A DNA stretch of 39,928 nt, taken from positions 85,886 through 125,813 of the forward strand of contig CAIWGV010000045.1 in the NCBI GenBank assembly GCA_903912365.1, written 5' to 3'. The notes beneath the pieces were generated by a model, which worked only from the letters and a program-made list of their open reading frames with translations, did not search any database and was not told the origin of the DNA. Both the position numbers and the translations under genes were made by a program. Source of the DNA: an uncultured Alphaproteobacteria bacterium (GTDB taxonomy: Bacteria > Pseudomonadota > Alphaproteobacteria > UBA7879 > UBA5542). This document shows, piece after piece, positions 3,001 through 25,300 of the stretch. Position 1 is the first letter of the stretch; each line of letters opens with the position of its first letter.

Positions 3001-3498
3001 TCTCTCAGAGATTTCCAAAACAATCCCTTTATCATAAAACCACCATTGCAGAAGGGGATCTTCTGTGGGAACGGAAAAGGCTGGACTCGAAATGGGATTT
3101 GACAGGCCACTGTTTTGCAAAACAGTCTTTTTTCCAGAGAAATCATCCCCTACAACAATAAACCAGGGCAAGCTATAAATATCTTCTGAAACCAGATTGC
3201 TTTTAAGGGCCCCCATGGCTCCCCTGAAAGATGTGTAAATGGGCCCCAAAGGACGAACCCCAAGAACATCCAAAACTCCATAGATATAGAGTTGAATTTT
3301 TTCTAAAAGAGAAGAAGAGCTCTCAATGTCAGAGGGGAAGGCCGTCTGAAGTCTTGCAAAAAAATCTGGGTTTTTGAAACCGATTTTTTCAAGATGCCCT
3401 CTAAGACTAAGCTTTGTTGAATAAGCCACCAACAGAAAAATGAGGGCGTTCAGCGCCAGGATTATGATAATAAAATAAGGAAGGTAGTGAAACAGCAT
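1..3498 (-). CDS. tssM: Type VI secretion inner-membrane protein TssM (IcmF/VasK), 3' end outside window
   Basis: An open frame of 1166 codons runs without a stop from the ATG at 3498 to the left edge, so the C-terminus is missing. TssM is the large inner-membrane component of the type VI secretion membrane complex and spans the periplasm with TssJ and TssL. Visible features are an N-terminal hydrophobic segment (about residues 4-27), a cytoplasmic P-loop-like domain with PWFIVVGDDFSGKKT at about 111-125, a conserved IcmF motif MTKCDQVAGF, and a later membrane segment around WIRLGIAGLVISGVCGLYWI that precedes the long periplasmic region. The Walker A is atypical: Lys stands where Ser/Thr is expected after GK. 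The start codon overlaps the tssL stop in TAATG, which indicates translational coupling. The family assignment is firm because tssL and tssK are adjacent. Confidence 0.93.
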   Translation of the reverse strand, partial: MLFHYLPYFIIIILALNALIFLLVAYSTKLSLRGHLEKIGFKNPDFFARLQTAFPSDIESSSSLLEKIQLYIYGVLDVLGVRPLGPIYTSFRGAMGALKSNLVSEDIYSLPWFIVVGDDFSGKKTVLQNSGLSNPISSPAFSVPTEDPLLQWWFYDKGIVLEISERCFTTQKVEESWNTVLKALKRYRPYRPIDGIVLTAPATYFTGSEALSKDVMIQKATLLSSQLNKVGSFLGFKLPLYLLMTKCDQVAGFSGFCKELPEEALSEMVGWSNPYATDLAYKDSWVKEGFDKIYTSLFESTLRIFAQKPVEEYQDDLMIFPQAFSNLKENVSIYLDSTFQKDQYDNDIMFRGIFLTGDGGEDLTTHPFLKDLFKQKIFMEIGAAIPLNKFLVSASRTINWIRLGIAGLVISGVCGLYWIQGRLSADVQDIRPSLINILNNLQEENPNKFTAADAAEFRTKAILTLFVRVYESSLTSPVLLPSSISLLSKRLKDLLLVLYETRIEEPIHYLLKRKADSLIKDPLPTIRLDAPFSDPTQTSEFLLLEGYVNALLDLQAVISIYETLPETKSLGGLSKLINYIYGYEFAPSFLRAHETLGRDLINEGNYPPFYIENYRIFAEKRLYQLYNNFLRRILDPKYNYSLSQKLQKTLGKVEGQGFHDLENLRDSLTEIKNLMTFITASGASWMTNPRFDPGSKYQKLMGQIQNISLFSNDIQEKLAKTSEALYEKATTYLRSYGSPLTGHFLTISPLTKRLEPSPGLLNLESKLNEFLSKPFMQKVEGSPFINKIPQGQFVHWDPQAVRNSIALALDYKTFMDKELSSYPANIQNPLRVAGREQLERNIDVILEKGQMFYERPTQKWTQQSKDAMQSQIDNIAEVGPLFLKLLKYLDEDQAHKTQGRLKTALFDQMYEQLQNLDSTLNQGEYYLPSDPRFREWQGGKDAVLRSFNVADKAEMKSYFANQSAQIVTLATQYSVPIIEFLKADIFSLSMDQIKLVNRWYTLIQQSINYKQSKPSGSMAVLEEFLLDTGNDITYETCLAQTTVPPSVESTSDYFLGRKNLLLKGMNQRCQVMTAEWAAKQYNKIEALFNNNLANLFPFTVQIPKAAQLDAEVSGTAMEELFQELEVMTPEIQNSIMASGKYKKSWIQVKNFLDAMAEIKNFFQTYF

Positions 3499-4244
3499 TA
3501 TCCCTCCGCTCGAATGAGTCTGTGTATAGCGTCAATCACCGTGTATAAATCTTTCACTTCCACATACCAAAGAATGTAAAAGGCTATAACAAAACCAACC
3601 GCTGTGGTAGCTAAAATATAGTACCATGCCTGTGTGTTAGGCGCCTCAGAAGGAGACCTGGGATCTAACGTAAATGCATAGGCCTGAGGGAAAAATTTTC
3701 TGTACCCCTCCAGGAATTGAGGGGGTTGGTCTTCAATGACTCCATAAAGATTTTTCTTATATTGAGAGAGAATTTTTTGATCCTCCTCTCCCCTAAACTT
3801 TCCTTGAAATCCAAGACCCAGAGACAGAAGGTAAACCATTGCCACATCGGAACTTGTATGATCTCGGGTCTCTAAAAAGGCATTGAGTTTTTTGAAAAAT
3901 TCATCCCCTGCATCTTGAGTGTTATAAAGACGAGATTCCAAAAGATTATCTTCCCAAACTTTTTTGCCCTTCCATTGTAAATTGATAAAGGTTTCATCTG
4001 TTAAAGCAGCCATAACATATTGAGCTTCTTGGTAATATTGGGCCGCTAGGGCCCCTCCTCGAGTTTCCATCTGAGCATACTGGGATTGAAGCAGGGCTTC
4101 CAATCGATTCAAAATCTGTTGGGGGACCGAAGGCACCTCGTCTCCCTTTTCTGCAAGAGCCATAGCTTTAGATACCAGAAGGGCCTCATAAAAATCTTTG
4201 AAATTTTCCACAATTACAGATTTTATGTATTTTTCGTTGTTCAT
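3498..4244 (-). CDS. tssL: Type VI secretion protein TssL (DotU family)
   Basis: This 248-residue protein matches the DotU/TssL family, the inner-membrane partner of TssM that links the membrane complex to the baseplate. The diagnostic stretch is YVMAALTDETFINLQWKG, followed by a Trp/Leu-Glu region, AGDEFFKKL, and the motif LLSLGLGFQGKFRGEE around residues 140-155. A single C-terminal transmembrane segment (about 207-227, YILATTAVGFVIAFYILWYV) anchors it, as expected for this tail-anchored family. There is no C-terminal OmpA/peptidoglycan-binding domain, so this is the short form. It follows tssK by about 27 nt, with a purine-rich ribosome site (GGAAAGAG) ahead of its ATG, and it overlaps the tssM start by one base. 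Confidence 0.95.
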   Translation of the reverse strand: MNNEKYIKSVIVENFKDFYEALLVSKAMALAEKGDEVPSVPQQILNRLEALLQSQYAQMETRGGALAAQYYQEAQYVMAALTDETFINLQWKGKKVWEDNLLESRLYNTQDAGDEFFKKLNAFLETRDHTSSDVAMVYLLSLGLGFQGKFRGEEDQKILSQYKKNLYGVIEDQPPQFLEGYRKFFPQAYAFTLDPRSPSEAPNTQAWYYILATTAVGFVIAFYILWYVEVKDLYTVIDAIHRLIRAEG

Positions 4245-4271
4245 GCCATTCTCTTTCCGTGCATAATAGCA

Positions 4272-5612
4272 CTAGCCCGCTATATATAGAATAACTTCCT
4301 CAGGCCGTGTCTCATTCGTATCAGAGGGATTGAAGATTTGTAGATCTTCCCCACCTTTTATAAAATTTGGATCAATAGAAACTGTTACCAATATCTGCCG
4401 TGTTGTCTCCAGAAGTCCCATAGAAGCCACCTGAGAGACTATTTGTCTGTCTGCCCCCAAAATACGCTTTTCCTTCACTTGAGGAACAACGGATTGAGAG
4501 GCAATGATGGCCCCCATCAACCAACGGCTTGCAATAGGAGGTGTTATGATGGGGCCCAGTTTAATTCCAATAATCAGCTCTTTGGTTGTTAGCCACTCTT
4601 CATTTATGGGGTAAGAGAAAACCCGATCTACCTTATTGAAAGGAAGGGGAATAGCTGGATTCTTTACTTTTGCGACCATATCTTCAATAAAGGCAATGAT
4701 CGGATCAAAAGTCGCCTTTAGATCATTATGATTATAGGCTCCAAAAATAGGGGGAACTTGGCCTTGAGTCAAAGAACAGTAGCTTCCTGCAGAAATGCAA
4801 AGTTCTCGATAGATCTCAAAGGGATGGGATTTTTCTGATAAATAAAGAGCTTCCAGCACCACAATACGGCTCACGATGATGTTATAAATTCCTAAGTAAT
4901 AATTCAAAACAGGGGCCGTCTCTTCTGTTACAAGAGCACTTAGGCGATCAGATAAATAGGCAATATCTCTTCTCAGGTTTTTAATAAGGGCTCCACAGTA
5001 TTGGCTGATGAATCCCCCCGATTGAATAGAGGTGGATGGTGGAATAAAATCAGTTTTTACGAACATATTGTCTTTAAAGGTTACCTTCAAGAGAGGGAAG
5101 CTGGAGTAACGGGGAGTAACATCCTCCTCCCTCAAAAGAACTATCCTTAAGGAAAGTTTTGGCATAACAATGGGTTCATCACCGGTATTCTCATCCATAA
5201 TGGGGGTTGACTCAACGGAATCATACCGAGGCAAGTCTCCTGCGGTGTTAGCCGCATCTGGTTGTAAAGCCACCACTGCCAGATGAATGGTCATAACAGT
5301 GCCATCCAATTCTTTTTTAAGCCCAGAAATATCCAGCTCAACTTTCTTTGGGGAGTTTACTTTTTTATCCACAATGGAACCGTCTGGAAGAATGGCAAGG
5401 ATCTCATTGATGCGGATGATGCCTACAGCGAGGGAGGTCTCATCTAGATCTAGATAGCGGATACCCCAATACCAGGGGCAAGCGACGGTCAAATAACACA
5501 GGCTCGTTTGCTGCAATTCATTGCGCATTTGCTGGTAATGCTGTGGGTAAAGGAGCTGGCCTTCATACCATTGAACTGGATCCAAAACCGTAAAGTTATA
5601 TCGTGATTCCAT
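4272..5612 (-). CDS. tssK: Type VI secretion baseplate protein TssK
   Basis: This 446-residue protein is of normal TssK (VasE/ImpJ) length. TssK is a cytoplasmic trimeric baseplate adaptor that connects the TssL/TssM membrane complex to the TssFGE wedge. Family-like features are the N-terminal VQWYEGQLLYPQHYQQ stretch (about residues 13-28), the following RYLDLDETSLAVGIIRINEI region, and the C-terminal region ending in EEVILYIAG. TssK is specific to type VI systems, so it rules out a type IVB reading of the neighbouring IcmF/DotU pair. A strong purine-rich ribosome site (GGGGGATT) precedes the ATG. It is the first of three genes seen in this operon, with tssL and tssM downstream. Sheath, tube and ATPase genes are not in the window and may lie beyond the left edge or elsewhere. 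Confidence 0.93.
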   Translation of the reverse strand: MESRYNFTVLDPVQWYEGQLLYPQHYQQMRNELQQTSLCYLTVACPWYWGIRYLDLDETSLAVGIIRINEILAILPDGSIVDKKVNSPKKVELDISGLKKELDGTVMTIHLAVVALQPDAANTAGDLPRYDSVESTPIMDENTGDEPIVMPKLSLRIVLLREEDVTPRYSSFPLLKVTFKDNMFVKTDFIPPSTSIQSGGFISQYCGALIKNLRRDIAYLSDRLSALVTEETAPVLNYYLGIYNIIVSRIVVLEALYLSEKSHPFEIYRELCISAGSYCSLTQGQVPPIFGAYNHNDLKATFDPIIAFIEDMVAKVKNPAIPLPFNKVDRVFSYPINEEWLTTKELIIGIKLGPIITPPIASRWLMGAIIASQSVVPQVKEKRILGADRQIVSQVASMGLLETTRQILVTVSIDPNFIKGGEDLQIFNPSDTNETRPEEVILYIAG

Positions 5613-10701: not shown

Positions 10702-10748
10702 GGGAAATACTATAGCACAGAATGGGGGCTTTGGGAGGAGAAGAGGAC

Positions 10749-10788
10749 AAAAAAATGCCCCCCAACACAAAATGTCAGGAGGCATTTT
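10749..10788 (-). terminator. Rho-independent terminator after the exported biotin-ligase gene
   Basis: On the minus strand AAAATGCC pairs with GGCATTTT (8 bp, with two further G-C pairs beyond a mismatch), followed by a T run. It lies 16 bases past the stop of the 10804-11769 gene and ends the biotin pair's operon before uppP. Confidence 0.75.
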
Positions 10789-10803
10789 CCCTAAAATAAA
10801 ATT

Positions 10804-11769
10804 TTAATCCCTGAGCCGAACTCTGCCGCTCAGTTTCGTAACTCGGTTACCCTCTTCGTCCTCAAGAACAGCTTGTCCTTTTCCATCAATTTCTACTAAG
10901 GTATAATTGGTCTGTGTAGATTCTCCTGTATCCATGTACACCACCGGCTTTCCTCGGTAGGCAAGAACCATATTCAAAAATGGGGAGAATGTTTCCTCAA
11001 AGCTCTTTTCTTCATTCAACAACTTTCTATAATTCCTGACAAGGTTTTGCGTCAACCGGCTTAAAACCTCCTCCACACTAAATTCCCGCCCCGTCTCTAT
11101 CCGTAAAGAAGTAAAGGGAATTTTCATAGAATCCTCAAGATAGTCAAATCTTTCCTGGGCCACATCCGCATCCATATTAACGTTTATGCCGATCCCAACA
11201 ACAAGGGCATTATGACGTCTTTCAGATACAGCATCCCCTTCAAAGAAAGGCATAACCCCTTGAGATTTACACAAAACACCGCCGCTCTTTTTGCCGTTTA
11301 ACAAGAAATCATTGATCCATTTTAATTCGACCTTAGCATCTCCCAGATCAAAAGACTGAGCGGTTTGAGCCATAGAAACTGTCGTCACCTGGGGCACAAA
11401 AAAGCCCAGAGGCATTTTATCTTCTGGCCAAGGGAAAAGATAGGTCACATACACATTTCCTGGAGGGGACTGCCATGTCCGTCCATGCTGGCCTACTCCG
11501 GCCGTTTGCTCAGTTGCCGATATCCTAATGATTTCACTCGTATAAAGATTTTCTTGTCCCAGAGTATCCTGCAAGGAAGTCTTATCTCCTTTAGCATATT
11601 TATCAGTCATCTCATAGACAAGGGTCTGAGTAGAGGGGATTTTCCCCAAAGAAACAGATTTCATGGCGATAAGTGGATTTTCTGTCTCGGGAGAATGCCA
11701 AGAGGCAGCATTTACACCAAAACAAAAAAGCGTCAAGGCAAGGGATTGAGTCAAAAAATATTTCTTCAT
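10804..11769 (-). CDS. Exported biotin protein ligase-like protein
   Basis: The frame opens at 11799, but the ATG at 11769 has an ideal ribosome site (GGAGGACTACA) and begins a clear Sec signal peptide, MKKYFLTQSLALTLFCFGVNA, predicted to be cut at about 21/22. The mature part is a biotin protein ligase (BPL/LplA/LipB fold). It has STQ at 46-48, TEQTAGVGQHGRTWQSPPGN at 86-105 (biotin-binding loop), KWIND at 150-154 with the expected ligase lysine, VVGIGINVN at 190-198, and a C-terminal beta domain ending GRVRLRD. There is no N-terminal helix-turn-helix, so it is not a BirA repressor. Compared with E. coli BirA GRGRRGR, the loop reads GVGQHGR, changing the residues equivalent to R116, R118 and R119. 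It lies 78 nt downstream of an exported biotinyl-domain protein, its likely substrate. BPLs use ATP and normally work in the cytoplasm, so an export signal is very unusual. Confidence 0.88.
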   Translation of the reverse strand: MKKYFLTQSLALTLFCFGVNAASWHSPETENPLIAMKSVSLGKIPSTQTLVYEMTDKYAKGDKTSLQDTLGQENLYTSEIIRISATEQTAGVGQHGRTWQSPPGNVYVTYLFPWPEDKMPLGFFVPQVTTVSMAQTAQSFDLGDAKVELKWINDFLLNGKKSGGVLCKSQGVMPFFEGDAVSERRHNALVVGIGINVNMDADVAQERFDYLEDSMKIPFTSLRIETGREFSVEEVLSRLTQNLVRNYRKLLNEEKSFEETFSPFLNMVLAYRGKPVVYMDTGESTQTNYTLVEIDGKGQAVLEDEEGNRVTKLSGRVRLRD

Positions 11770-11847
11770 TGTAGTCCTCCAAATTTTCAACAGGTACATT
11801 TTTATGGGTGCACCCTACTTCTTTTTCTGTCCTCTGTCCATCAGAAT

Positions 11848-12642
11848 TTAGGGGATTATTTTACGTCTGACAGCAAAAAATGCTGACAATAAACCAAGGA
11901 ATAAACCGATCAAAAAGGTGATTAAATAGGGCCCTTTTATAGAGAAGAGATTCGGTATTTCTAAAGAATAAATCTTGGTTTTTATTTGTGATTTTTTCAA
12001 GTCTTCATCGAGATTTTTTTGTTCTTCTAAATCGAAAATATTTAGAACAAATGAATATTTATTTTTTTCATAATTTAGGGATTTTCTTTGAAAATCTTCG
12101 CCAAAATTTCTCGCCGATTCTAAGAGAAAAAATTCCTTTTCTTTTAGAGGATAGAGAGGGGCCTGAACCTCCGGCAATATGCTCTTCACGAAGAAAGAAA
12201 CAGTATCTTCTCGAAAGAGTCTTCGATCAGAAGAAGGGGAAGAAAATGTTGTCCGAACACCCTCCTCTTTCACAGGAAAATCCGTGGAACTCTTTATTTG
12301 AAGCCTCAGGATTTCCGAGGTTATATTTTTTTGAGGGGCAGTTTCTTGAATGTTTTTCTTTAACCACTTTTCTTTTGGAATAATGAGGCCAATAATACCA
12401 TCCAGAATCAGGTCTCCTTCCTGAACATTAGGTTGAAAATATCCATCGGAAGTCGCCCTGACAACCATCTCCATCTTCATAGCTTCAGTAAGGGTCGTAG
12501 GCTCACCTGTTCGAACAAATGTTCCCGGCTTCACAAAAAATTTTACAACTTTTCCTTCCCCTGAAACTGTACTGTCCCCCAAACCGGAATTTCCTGTGGA
12601 AATTAAAAAAAGTAGAAATAGGCTGAAAATTCTATGAATCAT
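11848..12642 (-). CDS. Exported, membrane-anchored biotinyl-domain protein
   Basis: I use the ATG at 12642 (264 residues). It follows AAGGGGACAAC and begins a signal peptide, MIHRIFSLFLLFLISTG, whereas the frame's earlier ATG at 12672 adds a charged leader with no ribosome site. Residues about 28-88 form a biotinyl/lipoyl domain: GEGKVVKFFVKPGTFVRTGE, then LTEAMKMEMVVRATSDGYF, then VQEGDLILDG. Lys56 in EAMKM is the expected biotin attachment site. The middle (about 90-235) is charged and unrecognised. A C-terminal transmembrane helix (GPYLITFLIGLFLGLLSAFF) and a short basic tail RRK would leave the biotinyl domain on the outer face of the inner membrane. No carboxylase or decarboxylase subunit is nearby. 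The C-terminal anchor loosely resembles Wzz- or HlyD-type proteins, but the intact EAMKM and the adjacent ligase favour a real biotin carrier. Confidence 0.85.
   Translation of the reverse strand: MIHRIFSLFLLFLISTGNSGLGDSTVSGEGKVVKFFVKPGTFVRTGEPTTLTEAMKMEMVVRATSDGYFQPNVQEGDLILDGIIGLIIPKEKWLKKNIQETAPQKNITSEILRLQIKSSTDFPVKEEGVRTTFSSPSSDRRLFREDTVSFFVKSILPEVQAPLYPLKEKEFFLLESARNFGEDFQRKSLNYEKNKYSFVLNIFDLEEQKNLDEDLKKSQIKTKIYSLEIPNLFSIKGPYLITFLIGLFLGLLSAFFAVRRKIIP
12472..12486 (-). other. EAMKM biotinylation motif
   Basis: These five codons encode residues 53-57 (EAMKM) of the exported biotinyl-domain protein. The lysine at position 56 is where biotin protein ligases attach biotin in biotin carboxyl carrier domains. 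The flanking pattern (Val-x-x-Gly before, Ala-x-x-x-Gly after) is intact. Confidence 0.85.
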
Positions 12643-12698: not shown

Positions 12699-12735
12699 GA
12701 AAAAAAGAACCGCTTGCAAAGGATACGCAAACGGT
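12699..12735 (-). terminator. Rho-independent terminator after the DUF465 gene
   Basis: On the minus strand ACCGTTTGC and GCAAGCGGT form a 9-bp stem with one G-T pair, followed by TCTTTTTTTC. It lies about 30 bases past the stop at 12766 and separates the small gene from the biotin pair. Confidence 0.75.
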
Positions 12736-13103: not shown

Positions 13104-13991
13104 TTACCCTTTGAAATGTATGATTTTTTTCCATAAAGCATCCCCGGATCTATAAATTTTTTCTATCCCCATGTCTGCTTCCATTTGGTGGCGGAACCAG
13201 GTGGTTTGGCGCTTGGCATAGTTGCGCGTTTTTTGCTGCATTTTGTCTGTGGCTTCTTCCAAGGAACCCTCTCCCTCAAGATAGGAGTTGAGCTCCGCAT
13301 ATCCCAAGGTTTTGAGACTATTGAGGTTTTTATCGTGTATGACCCTCACCTCCTCCAAGGCGCCTTCTTGGATCATCCGTCCCACACGCTGATTAATGCT
13401 CTCATAGAGCTCTTCCCGGGGAGGGAGAATTTTAATCATAAAAGGGGTCAAGTTTTTCAAAGGGCTTTCTGTTACCTCTTCCTGCCATTTGGCCAAGGAC
13501 TTTCCCGTATACTGTTTCACTTCCAAGGCTCTGATGATCCGTTGTGTGTCTCCCGGTTTCAATCGTGCCGCCATGAGAGGATCTTGCACTTCTAACTGTG
13601 CGTATAAATCTTTTGTTTCCCGATGCCGCAAAGATTCCCGGAGGGAGGCCGGAATTTCTGGAATGGAAGAAATCCCTTCCAGGAGGGCTTTCAGGTAAAG
13701 TCCTGTTCCGCCCACCACAATGGAGGGACCTTCAAAATTCTGGATTTCAGAGACCGCAAGATCCAGCCATTTTGCCACGGAAAAAGATTGATCCATGTCC
13801 AGGAATCCGTAGAGTTTATGGGGAACCTCTGCTTTTTCTTCTGCCGAAGGCTGGGCTGATAAAATGGGCAATCCCTTATAGACTTGCATGCTGTCAGCAT
13901 TTAAGATCTGTCCCTTAAGGGCTCGTGCCAGATCCAAGGCAAGGGCAGACTTTCCGCTGGCCGTGGGGCCTCCTATCAAAATGAGTTTCAT
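13104..13991 (-). CDS. miaA: tRNA dimethylallyltransferase MiaA
   Basis: The 295-residue protein is MiaA, which transfers a dimethylallyl group to A37 of tRNAs that read codons beginning with U. The P-loop GPTASGKSALALDLA lies at residues 8-22, followed by NADSMQVYKGLPILSAQPS, VVGGTGLYLKALL near 96-108, and the C-terminal NYAKRQTTWFRHQ characteristic of the family. Its start overlaps the btuD stop by four bases, so it is the last gene of the B12-transport operon. It should share riboswitch control unless an internal promoter exists. A terminator-like hairpin follows at 13017-13046. Confidence 0.96.
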   Translation of the reverse strand: MKLILIGGPTASGKSALALDLARALKGQILNADSMQVYKGLPILSAQPSAEEKAEVPHKLYGFLDMDQSFSVAKWLDLAVSEIQNFEGPSIVVGGTGLYLKALLEGISSIPEIPASLRESLRHRETKDLYAQLEVQDPLMAARLKPGDTQRIIRALEVKQYTGKSLAKWQEEVTESPLKNLTPFMIKILPPREELYESINQRVGRMIQEGALEEVRVIHDKNLNSLKTLGYAELNSYLEGEGSLEEATDKMQQKTRNYAKRQTTWFRHQMEADMGIEKIYRSGDALWKKIIHFKG

Positions 13992-14641
13992 GATAAGATT
14001 TGCCCCTTAAGCTGAGGGGGTTTTTTTGACAGGAGATGAAGCTTTTGATCCTCAATCATAAAAACTTGGTCACAAAATTCGTAGGCCAAATCTGGCTGGT
14101 GCAAAACCACCACCCCCACCTTGCCCGTACGGGTATAATCTCTTAAAAGGTCCATGAGTTTATCTTGATAGAGGGCATCCAAGTGGCTGGTGATTTCGTC
14201 GGCCAAAATTACTTTGGGAGATCGCATCAAAGAGTGAGCCAATAGAACTCTGGCCTTTTCCCCGGAAGAAAGAGTATTGAAAGTTTGATCCAAAAGATTT
14301 CCTAAATCCAAGGTTTCAATCCAATTCCTATGATCAGCGCTCCTCCCTATTTCCAACACATGTCGGGTGGCAAGGGGCCATGCACAGGTAAGCTCTGCAG
14401 GAATATAGCTCCGTACGCGGGCCAGATTTTGTTCAGAAAAAGCCTGAAGAGGCATGCCTCCGAGGATAATGCGGCCCTCCGTTGGGGGAGTCAATTTGGC
14501 AATTGTTTTGAGAAGGGTGGTTTTCCCAGACCCATTGGGGCCTAAGATTCCCACAAGTTGTCCCGGCAAAAAATGGGCCGTGAAGTTTTTAATGAAAATC
14601 CTATCTGCATATCCAATGGTGAGGTGCTCAAAATGTAGCAT
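13988..14641 (-). CDS. btuD: Cobalamin ABC transporter ATPase (BtuD-like, FecE family)
   Basis: This 217-residue ABC ATPase powers the BtuC permease. It contains Walker A GPNGSGKTTLLKT (about residues 34-46), signature LSSGEKARVLLAHSLM, Walker B VILADEITSHLD, and the switch histidine in VVVLHQPDLAYEF. Two departures are visible. The Q-loop position, where relatives have LPQ, reads YIPAEL, so the usual Gln is Ala. The DEPT sequence reads DEIT. The protein is shorter than most FecE-type ATPases (about 250). Its start overlaps btuC by 14 bases and its end overlaps miaA by four. The B12 substrate is inferred from the riboswitch and receptor at the head of the operon, because the ATPase sequence alone cannot separate heme, iron-siderophore and B12 systems. 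Confidence 0.85.
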   Translation of the reverse strand: MLHFEHLTIGYADRIFIKNFTAHFLPGQLVGILGPNGSGKTTLLKTIAKLTPPTEGRIILGGMPLQAFSEQNLARVRSYIPAELTCAWPLATRHVLEIGRSADHRNWIETLDLGNLLDQTFNTLSSGEKARVLLAHSLMRSPKVILADEITSHLDALYQDKLMDLLRDYTRTGKVGVVVLHQPDLAYEFCDQVFMIEDQKLHLLSKKPPQLKGQILS

Positions 14642-15587
14642 GGGAACTCCTGGGTTGTTTTAAAAGAAGGTAGAGGAAAAAAGGCGTGCCCATGAGGGAG
14701 GTCAAAACACCCACCTTCAGGTCTATGTGGTTTGAGAGAAGGCGCACCACCATATCAGCCGCAAGAGCCATAATGCCGCCCCCTAAAGCGGAGGGGAGCA
14801 AAAGATCAGCGGGTTTATGGTCTACAAAAGGGCGGAGCATGTGGGGCACTAAAAGGCCAATGAATCCCACAACCCCCACCAAAGAAACCAAAGGACCAAG
14901 ACTCAAGGCCATTCCTAAGATCAAGAAGCCATACATCTTTTTGGGAGAGGCGCCCAAAACAATAGCCATCTCTTCTCCCAAGGACAAAGTTTCTAAGGTA
15001 AATCGGAGGCGCCACAGAATGATCCATCCCGCCACACTGAGGGGAATGACAAAGGCAACTTGCCCTAGGCTATGATGGGCAAAGGATCCCAGCAACCAAA
15101 AGATGATTTCAAGACTGGCGTAAGGGTTGTGAGAAAGAGTCAGGATTAAGGTCATAAGAGCCCCCAGCAAACTATTCAAAGCAAGACCCGTCAAAATAAG
15201 CGTTAAAGGATTGGGATGTTTTTGCATAAGTTTATAAAGGAAAAAGGTAACTCCCACCACGCCCATCATCCCCGCCAAAGGAACCGCGAACAAATGGGAC
15301 CCTCCCAGGCCTAAGGCAATTACCATCACCGCCCCGAGGGCTGCTGCGGAGGAAATACCCATAATGCCCGGTTCTGCGAGGGGGTTCCTGAGAAATCCCT
15401 GGAGAACAGCCCCCGTGAGTCCCAGGGACACCCCCATGGAAACGGCAATAAGCATGCGGGGGAAACGAAGTTCCCACAGGACAGACGCGTTTTGTAAAAG
15501 AAGATCCAAGGGCAAGGTTCCGATAAAAAGGGACCCCCCCATCAATAGGGTTAGGACCAGACCTAGTAGAAGGGAAAGTTTACGCAT
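14628..15587 (-). CDS. btuC: Cobalamin ABC transporter permease (BtuC-like, FecCD family)
   Basis: This 319-residue polytopic membrane protein belongs to the FecCD/BtuC permease family, which forms a dimeric channel for corrinoids, heme or siderophores. Recognisable motifs are LRFPRMLIAVSMGVSLGLTG with the following GAVLQGFLRNPLAEPGIMGIS stretch near residues 60-75, and the C-terminal GFIGLLVPHMLRPFVDHK, the cytoplasmic coupling region contacting the ATPase. About nine to ten hydrophobic segments are apparent. It overlaps btuF by eight bases and btuD by fourteen, so the three are tightly coupled. The B12 assignment rests on the upstream riboswitch. Confidence 0.9.
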   Translation of the reverse strand: MRKLSLLLGLVLTLLMGGSLFIGTLPLDLLLQNASVLWELRFPRMLIAVSMGVSLGLTGAVLQGFLRNPLAEPGIMGISSAAALGAVMVIALGLGGSHLFAVPLAGMMGVVGVTFFLYKLMQKHPNPLTLILTGLALNSLLGALMTLILTLSHNPYASLEIIFWLLGSFAHHSLGQVAFVIPLSVAGWIILWRLRFTLETLSLGEEMAIVLGASPKKMYGFLILGMALSLGPLVSLVGVVGFIGLLVPHMLRPFVDHKPADLLLPSALGGGIMALAADMVVRLLSNHIDLKVGVLTSLMGTPFFLYLLLKQPRSSHATF

Positions 15588-16320
15588 GGTGGGTTTTTTT
15601 CATGGTTTCAATTAACTCATTTACCGTTGAATAACAAGCACAAAGGGTGACCTTTTTTGGAAGTTCCACTTCCCGTCTGTTTTTCATAAATCTTTTCCAA
15701 AAGGGGTGGTGTCTATTTTTTGAGGGACCCTCCAATAGAAAAACAACAGCTGGATCGGCCTCTAAAATTTTCTCCCAATCTATATATTTCCATCCTTTAA
15801 AATTCTTGAACCCATTCTCAAATCCGGCTTTTGTCAGAGCCTGGCCCAAAAGGGTTTTACCTCCAGGACTCAGCCCCGAAGCTCCATAGCAAACGGCACG
15901 CTTTCTAGAAAGAGGAGGGGACGGGAAAGGATTCGAATCTTTTTCCTTCAAACCCAGTTCCTTTATCAAAAATTGTCTTTGCTCGTTCACCTCTTCCAGG
16001 GTCTGAGGAGATTTTAACACAATAATTCTCACGCCTCTTTTTTCTAAAATATTTTTTATAAAAGGATCCAGATTGTCCATGGCAACTGCGCTTTTTATGG
16101 CTGGATCCAAGAGCTCTTCTATCTCTCCTTTATGAACTTTTAAGCCAATGGCCTTCTCTGAAAAAAAAGAGATATCTGGATCTTGGGCCAAATAGGTAAC
16201 GGCAAAAATATCCCGTGGTGGCACCAGCTCCAAAACCCACTGATCCGCACACAGATCCAATGAAATGATGGAGGCCTGTGCCTGCAGAAACAAACTAAAA
16301 ATAAAGACTCGAGCCCACAT
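15580..16320 (-). CDS. btuF: Periplasmic cobalamin-binding protein (BtuF-like)
   Basis: I choose the ATG at 16320 (246 residues), which follows AAAAAGGACATTTT and begins a signal peptide MWARVFIFSLFLQAQA. The frame itself opens at 16395. The mature protein starts SIISLDLCADQWVLELVPP, then IFAVTYLAQDPDISFF, the typical opening of helical-backbone BtuF/FecB-type binding proteins that capture B12 in the periplasm. The C-terminal lobe contains WKYIDWEKILEADPAVVFLL. Its start overlaps the end of btuB by 26 bases and its end overlaps btuC by eight. Substrate assignment comes mainly from the riboswitch-led operon. Confidence 0.87.
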   Translation of the reverse strand: MWARVFIFSLFLQAQASIISLDLCADQWVLELVPPRDIFAVTYLAQDPDISFFSEKAIGLKVHKGEIEELLDPAIKSAVAMDNLDPFIKNILEKRGVRIIVLKSPQTLEEVNEQRQFLIKELGLKEKDSNPFPSPPLSRKRAVCYGASGLSPGGKTLLGQALTKAGFENGFKNFKGWKYIDWEKILEADPAVVFLLEGPSKNRHHPFWKRFMKNRREVELPKKVTLCACYSTVNELIETMKKTHHA

Positions 16321-18067
16321 AAAATGTCCTTTTTGCACTGCGGTATCCATAAGTTTGCACACAATTACTGTTGAATATATTTTCAACACGCCCATAAATT
16401 TTTGAAGTGGGAGAGAGATTATAGTCCAAAGACACCTTCACCGCGTAATAAGAATCGAGGGATTTTTTTGAAAGACGATCTAGTCTTTTTCCTATGTAAA
16501 GAACTTGGTTATTCAAACTCCAGTCTTCTCCAAACCTCCAGGTAATTCCTGCCGCCCCCTTGTGCCGCGGAAATCCAATATTAACGGCGGTCCGGGGAGA
16601 AGGGGTTTGAGTCAGCGTGTAGTTGACGTAAAGATCTAAACCTTCTTTCAGCGTGGCAGAAAGGGCCGTTTCCACCCCTGAGAGGTTCGTGGTCGTGGGT
16701 GAATTTATGCTTGTTTTCCCTGAATACACGATCAGATCTTTTACCTCCGTTTGAAAATAAAGAACCTGAAAATTTGCTTTCTTTTGGAAAAACTCCTGAA
16801 TAACCCCCACATCAAAGGTGCGGGCTTTTTCTGGTTTCAAACTGGGGTTTCCTCGGTAATTTAATGTGCTCATATAGAGTTCACGAAAAGTGGGGGGCGC
16901 GAATCCTGTTTTAAGGGAACTTTTGACGGTTGTTTGATTGTATTTATAAGCTCCAGCTAAACTGTAGGTGGCATAAGTGCCGAATTGGTGGTTCTGCGTA
17001 AGGCGCCCACCCACCTCTCCGCTCCAATGGGAATCAAAGTTATGGGTTTGCTGAAGACCTACCCCATAGTCCGTTCCAGTTTTCCTCAGATTAGTTTCTG
17101 TTTTATAGGTATTCTGTCGCAAATCCGTCAAAAGTTTAAGAACACTTTCTTTGGTCCAAAACAGAGACCCTTCGTAGCGACCTCCCACCAAAGTGGTGTC
17201 CGAAGAAAATTTTCCAAAAATTCCCCCATCTTTAGAATCCGTTTCATTTAAAAAAAGATTAAGTTTATGAGATAAATTTCGAACATCAACCTTTCCTTCC
17301 GCACCCACCAAAATCATCTTGAAATTTTTTGTACCTTGAGGTTTAGAGGAAGGATTGGAAGGATCGTCATCATATTTCCCCGTGGATTCCATAATCCGCG
17401 CTGTCAGTTTTACCTGGCGAGAGGTGGTTCCTTTTTCAAAAATCCCAGCAGACCCCAATCGTCCATATTTATTCTTCTCCCCCAAAGTACGTGTGGGACC
17501 ATATTGAGAGATACCCGAAGATCGAGCCCCTTCCCCATGGATAATAAAGCGGCTATGGGCCCCTTTTTCTTGAACACTTCCATGGCCGTAGGCGGAGTCA
17601 AAAGAACCCACTTCCCCGTGCAAATATTTATCAGATTTTTTGGTGAAGGGTGTTTCCAAAAGAACCACCCCACCAAGAGCTCCTTCCCCATACAAAACAC
17701 CATTGGCTCCTGGAATAATAGATTTTGGGTGCGTGGAGCCTGACAGAAACTGAGAAAAATTCACCTCCCCAAAGGCCAGATCGTTTAAAGGAATCTCGTC
17801 TAAAAAAACTAAGGTATGTCGGCCGGAGAGACCTCGGAAATTTAGGCTTCCTTCCCCAGCACCCGATTCCTTAAAAAATACACTGGGAAGCCTTTCCAAC
17901 TCTTCCGTCAAAAGAGGAGACTCATCTTTCATGGCAACGGGTACAGTGTACTGGGGAGAAAAGGAATCTTCTCGCAGATTATTCCCGCCCACCACCGTAA
18001 GCCGTGTCTCCGCAAAGCCAGAGCCGATGCTGACCAAGATTACAAAAAATGTCCAAAAAAAAGGCAT
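16295..18067 (-). CDS. btuB: TonB-dependent vitamin B12 receptor (BtuB-like)
   Basis: This 590-residue outer-membrane receptor is close to BtuB length. A signal peptide (MPFFWTFFVILVSIGSGFA) is followed by a TonB-box-like stretch TRLTVVGG. The plug domain contains LPSVFFKESGAGEGSLNFRG and HTLVFLDEIPLNDLAFGEV, and GVLYGEGALGGVVLLETP closes it. A beta-barrel with alternating aromatic strands follows, with LYMSTLNYRGNPSLKPEKA in the barrel and a terminal Phe (VGSSLYF) as required for BAM recognition. It is the first gene after the cobalamin riboswitch, which supports B12 as substrate. The ribosome site is weak (GTGTGGATGT), as would suit translational control by the riboswitch. Confidence 0.92.
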   Translation of the reverse strand: MPFFWTFFVILVSIGSGFAETRLTVVGGNNLREDSFSPQYTVPVAMKDESPLLTEELERLPSVFFKESGAGEGSLNFRGLSGRHTLVFLDEIPLNDLAFGEVNFSQFLSGSTHPKSIIPGANGVLYGEGALGGVVLLETPFTKKSDKYLHGEVGSFDSAYGHGSVQEKGAHSRFIIHGEGARSSGISQYGPTRTLGEKNKYGRLGSAGIFEKGTTSRQVKLTARIMESTGKYDDDPSNPSSKPQGTKNFKMILVGAEGKVDVRNLSHKLNLFLNETDSKDGGIFGKFSSDTTLVGGRYEGSLFWTKESVLKLLTDLRQNTYKTETNLRKTGTDYGVGLQQTHNFDSHWSGEVGGRLTQNHQFGTYATYSLAGAYKYNQTTVKSSLKTGFAPPTFRELYMSTLNYRGNPSLKPEKARTFDVGVIQEFFQKKANFQVLYFQTEVKDLIVYSGKTSINSPTTTNLSGVETALSATLKEGLDLYVNYTLTQTPSPRTAVNIGFPRHKGAAGITWRFGEDWSLNNQVLYIGKRLDRLSKKSLDSYYAVKVSLDYNLSPTSKIYGRVENIFNSNCVQTYGYRSAKRTFYVGSSLYF

Positions 18068-18376: not shown

Positions 18377-18853
18377 TTAAGAGGCTTTCAGAAACTCTAC
18401 CCTACGCTGAAGGGCTTCTCTGGAAAATCTGAAGGGCAGCGTTGCGCTGAGGGAAAGGGCTTTTTCATAAGCTTCCCGTGCCAATTCCTTCTGCCCTGAC
18501 TGATCATGAACCACCCCTTGATTAAAATAAAAATCAGGGGAGGACATGTTTTCTAAGGGTGTGGGTTTCTGAGACGGCGCCTCAACCACCTCAATAAAAA
18601 TATCAGAAGAAGGATCCTCCCCCAATAGGGGCTCCAGAGGAGTGGAAATTAGAGAGTCCACGAACTCTGGGTCCTTATCGTCTCCCACGGAGGATGGAGG
18701 AACAGAAGTTACAGGGATGCTGGGCTCAAGTGGCATAGAGGGGACCTCTCTCATGTACATCCAAATACCTACACTTAAAAGAGTAAAGGCGCCTAAAAAT
18801 CCGGCTATCAAAAAATACTTTTTCAGATCCATTTTTTGGAATTTTTCTATCAT
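18377..18853 (-). CDS. Membrane-anchored TPR protein of the pilus/secretion cluster
   Basis: This 158-residue protein has one N-terminal membrane helix (about 14-34, FLIAGFLGAFTLLSVGIWMYM), a proline/serine-rich linker, and a C-terminal TPR-like repeat (SSPDFYFNQGVVHDQSGQ followed by KELAREAYEKALSLS). It starts within the last four bases of the preceding prepilin-like gene, so it belongs to the secretin/prepilin operon. A scaffold or assembly role similar to MshN-type TPR proteins is possible, but that is inference from context. The C-terminus ends with a basic helix. Confidence 0.75.
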   Translation of the reverse strand: MIEKFQKMDLKKYFLIAGFLGAFTLLSVGIWMYMREVPSMPLEPSIPVTSVPPSSVGDDKDPEFVDSLISTPLEPLLGEDPSSDIFIEVVEAPSQKPTPLENMSSPDFYFNQGVVHDQSGQKELAREAYEKALSLSATLPFRFSREALQRRVEFLKAS

Positions 18854-19638
18854 AGGAAAGTCGGCACCTCTTGAATTTTTTTCGGCACACAGGGACTGTG
18901 GGCATAAAGAGCCATCAAATTACTCCGGGTTACCCACACCACCATGTCATCGAAATAATCTTGCCTGAGAGAAGAAAAGGCTCTCTGGACAAAGCTCAGT
19001 TTCATGCTCGCATTTTCTCTTTCATCTTTGCCTTTTTGAGAAACTTCCGTAAGCTTACGCAGAGACCCCCCGCCCCCATAATAGGCCCCATATCCATTTT
19101 CTCCATGGCTTAGGAGAGTTACCACAACAGGATCTTCCTCGGATCCTCGCTGAAAAGGTACGTGAGTGGGGGAAAGTTTTTCAAAAATCTGGATGGCGAA
19201 GAAATTTTTTGCCGTACAAAAAGATCCAAGTTCATCCCTAAGGTGCGTTTCCGGCGTTCCCCCCGCATAGGTGAAATACCGTTTAAATCCCTCTTGGGCG
19301 TAGGATTCCGGAAGGCCCAAGGTTTTAAAGGGAAGAATGCCGATCATATCAGGGGGATTTAGGGCTGCCTCCCGCGCCACCCCAAAATCCTCCCCCTGGG
19401 CAAAGGGATCTGCCGGCAAAGGAATGTACCCATTTTGGAGAGCGAAGGCGCCCAAACTTTGAAGAATTTTTTCCTGTTTCTCTTTGGTCTCCAAAGTTCT
19501 TTGATATCTTAGGTATTGCAAGAAGGAGGGAATGCCAACCCCTAGCATCACCCCCATCACCACAAGGCAAATGGCTATCTCTAGGAGAGAGAACCCCTCG
19601 TCGTTTCCATAAAAATGACTCGTGATATTATGCTTCAT
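18850..19638 (-). CDS. Prepilin-like protein (type IV pilin/pseudopilin N-terminus)
   Basis: This 262-residue protein has a prepilin leader ending in DEG followed by FSLLEIAICLVVMGVMLGVG. The prepilin peptidase site is therefore Gly|Phe, with the Glu at +5 and a hydrophobic helix that both anchors and assembles. The rest is long for a major pilin and contains two distant cysteines (SFCTAKNF and HSPCVPKK) that could form a disulfide near the C-terminus. It starts inside the last bases of the upstream prepilin gene and overlaps the TPR gene by four bases. It may be a minor pilin or adhesive tip protein, but no specific family was recognised. Confidence 0.85.
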   Translation of the reverse strand: MKHNITSHFYGNDEGFSLLEIAICLVVMGVMLGVGIPSFLQYLRYQRTLETKEKQEKILQSLGAFALQNGYIPLPADPFAQGEDFGVAREAALNPPDMIGILPFKTLGLPESYAQEGFKRYFTYAGGTPETHLRDELGSFCTAKNFFAIQIFEKLSPTHVPFQRGSEEDPVVVTLLSHGENGYGAYYGGGGSLRKLTEVSQKGKDERENASMKLSFVQRAFSSLRQDYFDDMVVWVTRSNLMALYAHSPCVPKKIQEVPTFL

Positions 19639-20318
19639 ATCTGCACATACACCACGCAGCTGGCCTGGGTGTTTTCTCCATTAAAATCGCCGCCTTTCAG
19701 GCAAGACCCGGGTGCCACGTCAAGGCCATCTCCTGCTTGGACCCGACCAGCCAGAGGATCGGCGCTATCCATTTTCTGACAAATGGTCCGGGCCTGAAGG
19801 GGAGTGAGGAGAGCCCCCTGACCGTTCATGCCGTGAGGTTTGCCGAGAATCATCCAAAGACCGGGACGATCGGGGGTGGGATTAGTTTGCATCGTCACCA
19901 CGCCCCCAATTTTTTCTGCTGGAACCCCATGACCTCCGAAAGCTGGCCCATTACTTGGTAATTTCCCCACATCTTGGATCAAGTTACTGGCGGCTAAATG
20001 AACCCAGAAATTCCCGGCTTCGGCTCCCGGGTCTAACCCCTCCCCATCCAGAAGGCCATTGCCGTTTCCATCGCGGAGATCGCGCCGTATATACTGAGAC
20101 GCCCCGGAAAAATCCCCCGGCAAGGCGCCGTACTTTTCCTGGAACAAATGGGTGGCGACTCGATACCCTTCCATGTTCTGCACCACCGCATTGATTTTCG
20201 CGGAGGAGATCAACTCTTGTCCCTTTAAAACGCCTCCAATGATGAAGCCAATGAGCACCAAGGCGATAGCCACTTCCACCAAGCTAAATCCATCGTCATT
20301 TTTCATATATTTTTTCAT
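19635..20318 (-). CDS. Prepilin-like protein, probable pilin or pseudopilin
   Basis: I use the ATG at 20318, which follows AAGGAG with seven intervening bases. The frame's earlier GTG at 20339 lies in the secretin stop region. The leader MKKYMKNDDG is cut before FSLVEVAIALVLIGFIIGG, a canonical class III signal with Glu at +5. The mature domain includes FQEKYGALPGDF, DGNGNGLLDGEGLDPG (a Ca-binding-like Asp/Gly-rich loop) and two C-terminal cysteines (SCLKGGD and SCVVYVQI). FQEKYGALPGDF resembles type IV pilins of the GspG/pilin-like group in alphaproteobacteria. It follows the secretin gene directly and precedes the second prepilin. Confidence 0.87.
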   Translation of the reverse strand: MKKYMKNDDGFSLVEVAIALVLIGFIIGGVLKGQELISSAKINAVVQNMEGYRVATHLFQEKYGALPGDFSGASQYIRRDLRDGNGNGLLDGEGLDPGAEAGNFWVHLAASNLIQDVGKLPSNGPAFGGHGVPAEKIGGVVTMQTNPTPDRPGLWMILGKPHGMNGQGALLTPLQARTICQKMDSADPLAGRVQAGDGLDVAPGSCLKGGDFNGENTQASCVVYVQI

Positions 20319-20335
20319 GGTTTTTACTCCTTTTA

Positions 20336-22123
20336 TCACCGATGTACCTCCACCGGAAGGGGCCGTGGATCTGTTGTGAATTTTTCATAGAGACGTTTGT
20401 CCCCTGCGTCCGGGGTAGGATCTTCCAGGATGGTGGCCCGCAGAAAAATCACCAACTCCGTCACCACCCGATGCTGATGTTTTGCGGATGTAAAGAAGCT
20501 GAAAAAACTCTCGGACGTACCCGGAAGTCCCGCTGTTCCTGCCTCTGCCCCCTCCACCATAAGTCCCCCTAAAATTGCGATATTTCCGGATTTAATTCTC
20601 AAAATAGAATCGATTTCTCGCACGGCCACCACTGGATAATCGGACCGGATTTTCTTGGAAGGATTGTTCAAGGATTGATTCAAAATCTCCACGGCTGGAT
20701 CTTGCTTCACATCGATGAGTCGGGAGATGGTGGGGCGCAGATTCAGGATAATCTCCTGGGTACTCTCATCGATTGCGGGTTGCACATTCATGACAAACCC
20801 GATGGGAATGCTTTGGGGCGTGCTGGAAGTGGACACTACGGATCCATAATTGGTGGCATCCGCATTCAAAAATTGGCGGTCTCCGGTAACCGTAAAAAAC
20901 ACAAAATTCTCCGCCACTTTCAGCAGGGCCGTTTGATTATTAAGCACCGTGAGACGGGGGCTTGAGAGGGTCCGCACGGTCCCAAAAGCTTCCATAAAAT
21001 TGAGGATCGCGGACAGGGAGCTCCCCTGGACGCCGAGGCTGATAACCTTATTTGTTTCGGGAGTGGTGATGAGGGAAGACGTCCGGGTGGCCAAATCCCC
21101 AAACAAAGCGGAAGCTTCAAAGTCCCCCGTGAATCCGGTTTTCTCTGTACCATAGGCCCCGAGTCCATACCGTCCAATCCGCTGCCAATCAATGCCGCTT
21201 CGGTATTCCTCCTTCAAGGTAACTTCCACAACTTTGGCCTCAATGAGAATTTGGGTGGAGGTTTGTTTTTTCAGACGCTTCAAAAAGAAATCGATATTTT
21301 TGTGTTGTTTTTCGGTGGCATAGACCGATACCAATCCCGCTTGTCGATGGAGGGCAAAGGAGGGTCGCTGTTTTGCCATAACCTTTCGTGTTTCTTCTGT
21401 CTTATGGGGGACCTTTGGATCCTCTGAAGATTCACGACTCAAATGCTTGGACAGAGGAATGGTTTTCTTTTCTTCAATGATCTTTACCTCCCCTTCTTTC
21501 AGGGGTGTATCCCTAGATAAATTCAAAATAGTTTCGATGCTTTTTTCCAGCTCCGCCCAAAAATCAACATCTGTTTCCCCTGAGATACTGCTGGAGGATC
21601 CATTAACATCCGACGATGCCGCTTTTGCAAAAATATTGCTGTTGATAGACACGGAATTTTTTGTTTTGCGAGAGAGATTTAAGAACTGCACATTGTAGGT
21701 TTTTAGATAGGGCAAGTCCCGCTCCACCCGCAACAACCTATTTTCAAAAGTGAACCGGAGATGGGCCATTTCGCAGATGTTTGTAATGACCTCTAAGAAA
21801 GGCCGAGACGTTGCCTGGTAATACAAACTTCCTTCAATATCTTTATCCAGGATCAGATTGATCTTGGCCTGCTTACAAAGCTGAATCAGAACCTCCCGGA
21901 GATCCGCTGAGTCTTCAATATGCAAAGACACCCGCTTTTGCAGCTCTGGCTCGGGCTGTGGATTCTCAAGAATCACCGGCTGGGGAATGGGGGGCTCAGG
22001 GGGAAGCGCGGCCCGTGTTGTGAGAAGGTCGTAAATTTCCTTTTTTGGCAGAGACGTGGGCGCATCCTGCAGGGAGCAATGGCTCACCAGTAAAAACATC
22101 AGACCTGTCACCCATTTCTTCAT
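20336..22123 (-). CDS. Secretin (MshL/PilQ/GspD superfamily), probable lipoprotein
   Basis: This 595-residue outer-membrane secretin begins with a signal sequence MKKWVTGLMFLLVSHCSLQ. The cysteine could be lipidated, although the His before it is atypical. A secretin/TonB short N-terminal domain follows (LREVLIQLCKQAKINLILD). The C-terminal secretin domain shows ILIEAKVVEVTLKEEYRSG, VQPAIDESTQEIILNLRP, and VREIDSILRIKSGNIAILGG then LMVEG, which is closest by eye to MshL-type pilus secretins. It would form the outer-membrane gate for the pilus or pseudopilus made by the following two prepilins. The start has GGAG five bases upstream. No assembly ATPase or platform protein is adjacent, so the rest of the machine must be elsewhere. 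Confidence 0.9.
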   Translation of the reverse strand: MKKWVTGLMFLLVSHCSLQDAPTSLPKKEIYDLLTTRAALPPEPPIPQPVILENPQPEPELQKRVSLHIEDSADLREVLIQLCKQAKINLILDKDIEGSLYYQATSRPFLEVITNICEMAHLRFTFENRLLRVERDLPYLKTYNVQFLNLSRKTKNSVSINSNIFAKAASSDVNGSSSSISGETDVDFWAELEKSIETILNLSRDTPLKEGEVKIIEEKKTIPLSKHLSRESSEDPKVPHKTEETRKVMAKQRPSFALHRQAGLVSVYATEKQHKNIDFFLKRLKKQTSTQILIEAKVVEVTLKEEYRSGIDWQRIGRYGLGAYGTEKTGFTGDFEASALFGDLATRTSSLITTPETNKVISLGVQGSSLSAILNFMEAFGTVRTLSSPRLTVLNNQTALLKVAENFVFFTVTGDRQFLNADATNYGSVVSTSSTPQSIPIGFVMNVQPAIDESTQEIILNLRPTISRLIDVKQDPAVEILNQSLNNPSKKIRSDYPVVAVREIDSILRIKSGNIAILGGLMVEGAEAGTAGLPGTSESFFSFFTSAKHQHRVVTELVIFLRATILEDPTPDAGDKRLYEKFTTDPRPLPVEVHR

Positions 22124-22302: not shown

Positions 22303-25300
22303 ATGCGGGGGTTTATGCGTCGTTTTCTAATTGTTTTTTTTGCCTCAGGAGGGTTTTCTCTTCTGGTTACACCTGGGCAGAGCACCACAGTTGGATATAA
22401 GGACGCCCCCTCAATTCTTTCTTTAAATCCAAATGTAAACAAGAAAACCCGAGACACTCGAGGGAAGCGACTTCTGACACTCCTTAAGGCAAATCGGATC
22501 TCTTGTGAATCCTTAGATAATAAAGGTCATGAGGTTGGGGAGACACCCGACGCTGAGCTTCCTGAAGTTAGGGAGTTTTGCCTGGTAGACGCGCTGAAGA
22601 CAAAACGAGAAACCTGCGAGAATTTAATAACAAATAGAAACTGGGAATACAAACTTCCTGAGGTTAATAAATATTGCTCTGCGCGACTTCACTGGGAACA
22701 GCAGGACAAATCAGGCCATCAATGGGACAAACGAAACTGGAAACGCACCTTCTCTGATGAGCCTGTCAAAAGTGGTCCTACTCCCCATTCCGTCGAGACG
22801 CTCCCTGCGGCACAATTGCCAATAGCTTCTGGAGAGTCTCACTCCCCAATAACTCTTGCTGTTCCCGTTGACGATAACAGAGGACTTGAATCTGATGCCT
22901 CCAGAACACACGTTACCCGCACCGTAACGCGCCGCGTCCCTAGGGATATCCCGTCCCTAGATGGACCTGAAGCTAGAGGGGGCACTCAGCATCCAGAACT
23001 GGCTCAACAAAAGCTGAACAATGCCTATAACAACGTTTTTGCCCATCTGAAGCAGCTTCATACCGCTTGGGAAACTTTGGAACGGGAACAGAAGACCAGC
23101 AATCCTGAAAAACTCCGGCCTTTCGAAGAGCGCTTCATCCGACAGGTGGGGCAATCTCAAAGCTATATAGGGACCCTAGATCGGCAAAACAGTTTCTTAG
23201 GGGAAGAACTGGGGCGTCTTTTCAACACCCCCTCCCCAAAAGCAGACCGCGTTGCCCTGCAAAAATTCCACAGCATGCTGAATGTTGTAGGGAGGCAGAA
23301 TGGGGATCTCCACGCAAAAATCAAAAAGATGCACCAAACGTATGCGGCCCTCACAGGGGCCCTTAAGGGGAAAATAACGCAAGAAGTTGCAGAAGAGATC
23401 TATCAAGAAACCATCCATCCAAAGCCTAATGGAAATGACGGAAATGACCTCCGGGAATTGGAAATACAGATTGCCCTAACTGAAAAAAAAGGACATGACA
23501 TAGGAACACAGTTTGAGCAAATAATTGGTCATACGTGCCCCGGAGACGTCTGCCCCGCTCCCCAACACATTCTCCACCAGGCAAAAGAACTTGAGCAAAA
23601 AATTCAGGGCCTTCGCGCAGAGCTTGCTACCCTGGAAAACCGTGACACTCGGGGGAACATCCCCAGAGTTCAGGCCCTAGAAGCTAAAATAGCAACACTC
23701 GATACAGGTCTGACCAAAACTATTGAGGGACTCAGGGCAGAATTGGGAACGGCTCAGCAAGCATCAGCAACAGCGGACAAAGTGGCTAATAATCTCCTGG
23801 GAGAACAGGAGGCACTCAGAGCCCGGGTAGCTCAGCTAGCTACTACAGAAGCTGCTGCAAAGGCAAGAGTAGCGGAGGTGGAACGACAGGAACAGACCCA
23901 TCAATTAACGGCACGTCAGGCTGAACAGGCAAAGGCGGCTGTTGAGAAGACTTTGCAGGAACAGCGAGCAGAAGCTGCGAAACTTTTGGCTCAAAATACG
24001 GCGTTGGAAGAGAAAATTAAGAGACAAGCTGGAAGGCGAATTCTGAGTGTATTTCAGGCAAATAGGGCCCGAAGAGAGAATGCAGAGATAGCGGATAATT
24101 TGAGAGGGCTGAATAGAGCCAATGAAGCGACAGTGGCAGCTCTGAAACAACAACTGCAAACGTCTGAGCTAGAGAAGACGGAAGCTTTATCTCAAGTTAG
24201 AAAGAGTTTATTGAGTTCTGGTGAAGCAGAGAGAGGAAGGGTCGAAGCCGAACGAAAAGCTACAGAGTTGGAAAAACAGCAGCAGCGTTTGAATGCAACC
24301 CTAGCTGTTCTTCAGCAGAGGGAGAGAGATCTGGGCACAGAAATAGTTAGAGTCCAAGCGACAGCAGACACCAAAACACAGCTCGCAGAAAAGACAGAAA
24401 GACAAAGAAAAGATTTACAAGAAAACCTTCAGAGGACTCAGAATCAGATCCAAGCACTGAGCTCTAAAAATGATCAACTGGGAATTGAGATGAAGCGTTC
24501 GGTCGCTGCCCATCGAATTGTGGGAGCGCTCCTCCAAAGTGTAGCTACAAAAAAAATAAAGGAAGCCCAGGAAGAAAATCAAAGGGTTCAAGCTGAGCTG
24601 GCAATCCTTCGAGCCGAGAGTGAACGATCACAAGCTGCTTTGAAAACGGACCTCGACGCATCTAAGGCTTCTCTTGTGCAAGCTCAAAAAGAGAGGGAAG
24701 ATCATCAAAGGCAATTGAGCTTTACAAGAAATTCTACTCAGGAAACCGAACAACAAACGGCCCGAGAAAGGCTGCGACTAGACGCCCAAATTAATGGATT
24801 AGCCATCGACCAAAAACAAGCTGAGGCCAGAGCGGCAGCGGCTGAAGCAAGAGCGGCAGCGGCTGAAGCAAGAGCAGCAGCTGCGCCGGCTCATTCGGCA
24901 GAGAAGGCAGCGTTGGAAGCTTCAGCAGCAGCAGCTCTAGCCAAAAAAGATCAAGAAATTCTCGAACTAAAAGGAAGAAAATCCCAGCTCTTGTGGCAAA
25001 AATTTATTAGTGCTGTCATGGAGAAAAACCGGTTAGAAAAAATTGGAAGTGCCGCTGGCACCGTGTCTCTAGGCAACGACTTTGGATTTTCACAAAGCTT
25101 AGCTGACCAAACAAAGGCAATTCTCCAAGCTATCGCGGATCAAAAAGCAGCATTTGAAACACAGGCAGCACAGCTAGGAGAACTACAGGAAGCTTTAACA
25201 GAACAAGATAGCACAATAGAAAAACTCTCGGCAGAGCAAGAGCGTCTTAGAGCTCTCGCAAAACGAGCCGAAACTTTGCAACGAGAAATTACACCACAAC

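Follow-up and report, generated by a model that had tools for sequence, protein, structure and literature searches.

Attachment of biotin to proteins is regarded as a reaction that runs inside the cell and depends on ATP; exported forms of BirA are laboratory tools made by engineering. A search confined to the open-access literature returned engineered secreted or exported biotin ligases only and no natural one. Among the described systems, ApbE is an exported enzyme that covalently attaches a cofactor to envelope proteins outside the cytosol (PMC8238504), and LbpA is a stand-alone carrier served by a dedicated lipoate ligase, separate from the housekeeping set (PMC6067878).

The window, i.e., the whole 39,928-nucleotide stretch of DNA that was analysed, belongs to a 1.17-Mb alphaproteobacterial genome in 47 contigs (G000). 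It encodes a candidate exported biotin carrier and a candidate exported biotin protein ligase; both open reading frames were recovered on the minus strand where the preliminary description had placed them. The pair is a functional parallel to ApbE flavinylation in its exported cofactor-attaching enzyme, whereas ApbE takes FMN from FAD without ATP and its enzyme and acceptor families are unrelated to those found here (PMC8238504). The pair contains neither an ApbE enzyme nor an FMN-bind acceptor, and Pfam gives BPL and Biotin_lipoyl only. The combination of a dedicated carrier and its own ligase beside a housekeeping set recalls LbpA, which differs in using lipoate, in being cytoplasmic and in its link to sulfur oxidation (PMC6067878).

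With respect to protein family, the ligase resembles BirA-type biotin protein ligases (TIGR00121 / PF03099, the type without a DNA-binding domain) in its fold, the KWxND and GIGIN motifs, the catalytic lysine and the C-terminal domain. It differs from them in its predicted Sec signal peptide, in reading GVGQHGR instead of GRGRRGR, and in being a second ligase besides a vertically inherited housekeeping one. The carrier shares an EAMKM biotinyl domain with the transcarboxylase 1.3S and acyl-CoA carboxylase biotinyl domains (PF00364). In contrast to these proteins, it carries an export signal, a long charged linker and a membrane anchor, and no biotin carboxylase or carboxyltransferase partner is encoded in the neighbouring open reading frames.

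The operon and its two products

The carrier gene comes first and the ligase gene second, with an intergenic gap of 78 bases. Terminators flank the two genes on both sides, and they therefore form their own two-gene operon (Table 1). The hairpin after the ligase gene agrees with the earlier description of one operon ended by a terminator.

Table 1. Coordinates of the carrier-ligase operon and of its parts (nucleotide positions of the window; aa, residues of the carrier)
Feature	Position	Strand	Remarks
Carrier gene	11848..12642	-	264 aa; predicted exported biotin carrier
Carrier signal or anchor segment	aa 1-20		Hydropathy
Biotinyl (BCCP-type) domain of carrier	12358..12582	-	Approximate limits, about aa 21-95; PF00364
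Charged linker of carrier	aa 96-232		~140 residues
Carrier C-terminal membrane helix and positively charged tail	11848..11946	-	aa 233-264; hydropathy, model helix
Ligase gene	10804..11769	-	321 aa; predicted exported biotin protein ligase
Ligase signal peptide	11707..11769	-	MKKYFLTQSLALTLFCFGVNA, ~21 aa, cleavage site approximate, followed by AS
Intrinsic terminator 3' of ligase gene	10744..10791	-	Strong; hairpin within 10744-10803, -24.7 kcal/mol, z -5.0
Terminator-like site 5' of carrier gene	12709..12735	-	Sets the operon apart from the preceding gene

Pfam, NCBIfam, Foldseek and a sequence search of the PDB all identify the second product as a biotin protein ligase. The match to Pfam BPL_LplA_LipB (PF03099) has an E value of 7e-13, that to TIGR00121 reaches 80.1 bits, slightly below the cut-off of 83.1, and the structure model (mean pLDDT 82) finds biotin protein ligases with Foldseek at E 3e-19. 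Almost all catalytic motifs are kept: the protein has KWIND, GIGIN, the C-terminal domain and lysine 161, at what we take to be the position of BirA K183. The retention of KWxND and GIGIN reported in the preliminary description is thus confirmed by alignment, Pfam and Foldseek. The biotinoyl-AMP loop, whose usual though not strictly defining form is GRGRxGR, reads GVGQHGR, with V and Q at the positions that presumably correspond to R116 and R118 of E. coli BirA. Glutamine at the latter position is common among normal Bacteroidales ligases; the same loop is GIGQRGN in signal-free Bacteroidales ligases and begins with GIGQ, GRGQ or GVGQ in signal-free ligases of other small-genome, intracellular alphaproteobacteria. 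Because GxGQ occurs in these signal-free enzymes, GVGQHGR represents a lineage feature rather than decay or promiscuity, and excludes neither family membership nor activity. A naturally promiscuous ligase is not claimed on the basis of this glutamine, which is normal in many Bacteroidales ligases, and a degenerate ligase was rejected in view of the motifs conserved at 35% identity between the window ligase and its nearest relative (see below). The comparisons support a ligase that is intact in sequence.

The carrier contains an intact biotin site, TEAMKMEM, a motif of the biotin rather than the lipoyl type. Its match to Pfam Biotin_lipoyl (PF00364) lies above the cut-off (E 2e-7, profile positions 11-54 of 73), and among solved structures it comes closest to the transcarboxylase 1.3S biotin carrier. 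Assignment to the efflux membrane-fusion proteins, which are not known to carry EAMKM, was rejected. The first 16 residues are hydrophobic, with a 10-residue Kyte-Doolittle maximum of 3.18 behind MIHR, and could be either a cleaved signal or an uncleaved anchor. A second hydrophobic segment spans approximately residues 239-258 (19-residue mean 2.55) and is followed by RRK; the single-sequence structure model is poor apart from the end helices, with a confident helix at 237-262. With H and R before the first end helix and RRK after the second, the positive-inside rule puts the biotinyl domain and the linker on the outer side of the inner membrane. Hydropathy and Pfam therefore bear out a carrier with a signal, an intact EAMKM and a C-terminal anchor, as previously described.

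The ligase starts at the ATG at 11769, preceded by GGAGG at a spacing of 6, and the carrier at the ATG at 12642, with AAGGGG upstream, in line with the earlier statement that the ribosome sites favour the signal-bearing starts. No ribosome site is present at the internal ATG of the ligase (codon 36), a possible cytoplasmic start. The N-terminus of the nearest relative, L012, is MTSFGKIFIGFLVTLLINTYFANA, then VW, a signal peptide that differs in sequence from that of the window ligase. L012 starts behind an AGGAGG ribosome site, and its codons 2-51 include no alternative ATG, GTG or TTG. The window ligase and L012 take the first two places by N-terminal hydrophobicity, measured as a simple hydropathy maximum and not with a trained predictor, in a sample of 87 ligases (alphaproteobacteria, other Pseudomonadota, Bacteroidales and others). 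The third-ranked ligase is close (2.09 vs 2.15 for the window ligase, upstream ATG used) and lacks a signal-peptide layout. A start-site artefact was rejected on the grounds of the ribosome sites and of L012, which has no other start before codon 52, and the predicted signal peptide of the window ligase is considered real. The cytoplasmic location that is usual for, though not defining of, this family is not what hydropathy and start-site analysis predict for the window ligase or for L012.

Relatives of the ligase and distribution of the pair

The nearest relative of the ligase (L012/L093) is encoded on contig DAIDHR010000003.1 of G325, an alphaproteobacterial metagenome assembly from a different order. 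The window ligase is 35% identical to L012 over the length of the latter, and the ST, QTAG, W, KWIND, KK and GIG.NVN elements are invariant in both. In a maximum-likelihood tree, the two signal-bearing ligases pair together with support 100/92 and nest in a five-member clade (98/90) with the signal-free ligases of G134, G022 and G154, each being the only candidate that a search of this sensitivity detected in the respective genome. The housekeeping ligases of the window genome (L003, predicted cytoplasmic and adjoining a nuoN-like gene) and of G325 (L147) group with their alphaproteobacterial relatives, apart from this clade. The simplest reading is that a transferred or duplicated ligase would have acquired a signal peptide once.

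G325 yielded no small exported biotinyl protein above the cut-off and no detectable exported carrier; its PF00364 matches, listed up to E 10, correspond by size to AccB, E2, acyl-CoA carboxylase subunits and secretion adaptors. Since this genome lacks both such a carrier and BioY, its exported ligase appears to be independent of such a partner and would need another substrate or job.

A second genome with the carrier and ligase side by side was not found among 6 members of the order, 385 genomes of the class, plasmids and viral contigs; the pair is thus not conserved across the 6 order members examined. The 385 class genomes gave no full-length carrier relative, only domain-level matches judged to be carboxylase subunits from long open frames, and plasmids and viral contigs gave no carrier match. 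With the ligase as query, plasmids returned weak ordinary ligases only and viral contigs nothing. A first scan of wider genome contigs for relatives was without a match; a second one recovered G325 alone at full length, the others being ordinary ligases, mostly from Bacteroidales. The phylum sample, where four genomes besides that of the window passed 1e-18, contained no signal-bearing ligase. The pair is unique so far, because these searches gave no full-length relative of the carrier and the exported ligase of G325 stands without an acceptor. Of the homologous pair that the preliminary description proposed to look for in related genomes, only the exported ligase recurs, with a signal peptide that is obligatory in L012. 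The preliminary interpretation is partly sustained: export signals, intact ligase and acceptor, operon and ATP-parasitic lifestyle are supported, and no second pair was found.

Biotin and ATP supply, proposed mechanism and alternatives

In the PF00364 search, the credible biotinyl domains of the window genome number two, AccB and the window carrier; this genome also has two biotin ligases, the housekeeping and the predicted exported one, plus LipB (L005:1309-1938). AccC adjoins AccB on another contig. The earlier remark that no carboxylase is present holds beside the pair, with the qualification that AccB, AccC and the housekeeping ligase lie elsewhere in the genome. This genome yielded no lipoyl E2 domain: besides AccB and the carrier, PF00364 to E 10 gave weak matches in frames of 360-415 aa. 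Its order relatives have E2-sized PF00364 matches, and 2-oxoacid dehydrogenase complexes may have been lost from it. Genes of the TLC (ATP/ADP-translocase) family, whose members can differ in the nucleotide carried, number two in the window genome; at least one occurs in each of the 8 genomes tested and in none of 14 control genomes, which supports the previously assumed intracellular, ATP-parasitic lifestyle. The biotin transporter BioY is encoded on the same contig as the window (G000:C45:20937-21344) and was absent from all 7 other genomes tested. The presence of TLC genes and BioY makes host ATP in the periplasm and biotin import plausible.

In the proposed mechanism, the operon would give rise to the ligase and a membrane-tethered carrier, both leaving via the Sec pathway, and the ligase would fold in the periplasm. 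Biotin and host-derived ATP would cross the outer membrane and reach the ligase, which would form biotinoyl-AMP and transfer biotin to the EAMKM lysine of the carrier, hanging in the periplasm from the inner membrane by its linker. In its most likely role, the carrier would then act as a one-way trap that keeps scarce host biotin close to BioY at the inner membrane. Three points of this account are inferred: the actual export of both proteins, the presence of ATP and biotin in the periplasm, and the role of the carrier as substrate of the ligase. Export of both proteins is likely, and biotinylation of the carrier by the ligase in the periplasm has roughly an even chance. The biotin-trap role is put forward with low confidence; a biotin-release route, needed for covalent trapping, was not found. 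The whole account, with two Sec-exported proteins and a periplasmic ligase that biotinylates the tethered carrier with host ATP, is judged slightly on the favourable side of even. Points that count against it include the ligase of G325 without carrier or BioY, the lack of full-length carrier relatives, and the V and Q at the R116 and R118 positions. The broader proposition that ATP-parasitic bacteria biotinylate proteins outside the cytoplasm, be it a tethered carrier in the periplasm or host proteins after further secretion, could equally well be right or wrong.

Detection of a biotinylated carrier would not by itself prove periplasmic ligase action, because in E. coli engineered fusions of BCCP domains to Sec substrates can receive their biotin in the cytoplasm, ahead of export (PMC3418276). 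The carrier could accordingly be modified by the housekeeping ligase before Sec translocation, with the exported ligase acting as a periplasmic biotin-binder that holds biotin or biotinoyl-AMP tightly and aids BioY. Both L003 and BioY exist in this genome, and the G325 ligase occurs without a carrier, as such a role would allow. However, the catalytic and ATP-site motifs are kept at 35% identity, beyond what biotin binding should need, G325 has no BioY, and carrier and ligase share one operon; this explanation is considered rather unlikely. The possibility that the export signals are unused, so that the ligase starts at the codon 36 ATG or otherwise stays in the cytoplasm and serves AccB and the carrier as a second ligase of the ordinary kind, is improbable to a greater degree. 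The missing ribosome site at codon 36, compared with the GGAGG of the signal-bearing start, the lack of an early alternative start in L012, and the carrier signal and topology, which also place the biotinyl domain outside, outweigh the coincidence of codon 36 with the start of the signal-free relative L013 and the requirement of the ligase for ATP, normally met in the cytoplasm. A similarly small probability is given to a ligase that crosses the outer membrane, e.g., through a type II-like apparatus, and biotinylates host proteins where ATP and biotin are plentiful. Although the secretin and pilin-like genes in the same window (18850-22123) and the carrier-free G325 ligase are compatible with such labelling, the membrane-anchored operon partner would remain in the envelope, no secretion signal besides the Sec peptide is seen, and the secretin cluster may be a pilus.

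If periplasmic biotinylation with host ATP is true, ATP-driven enzymes can work in the periplasm of an energy parasite at the expense of the host cell. A natural exported ligase whose motifs are intact in two distant lineages would make it testable whether such bacteria have relocated further ATP-dependent enzymes out of the cytoplasm. The clade of exported ligases may also supply naturally export-tolerant ligases for surface labelling.

Neighbouring genes in the window

Upstream of miaA and the biotin operon, 13988-18067 (minus strand) encodes a TonB-dependent receptor, a weakly matching periplasmic binding protein, a FecCD permease and an ABC ATPase, a set for uptake of vitamin B12, haem or a siderophore. 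The minus-strand genes at 18377-22123 resemble a type II secretion system or a type IV pilus; they encode a secretin (PF00263), a small membrane protein and two proteins that bear pilin-type N-methylation signals. Type VI secretion genes (DotU and TssK-like) lie at 3498-5612 (minus strand). The product of the plus-strand gene at 22303-25797, 1164 aa long and apparently rich in coiled coils, has an export signal but matches no Pfam family.
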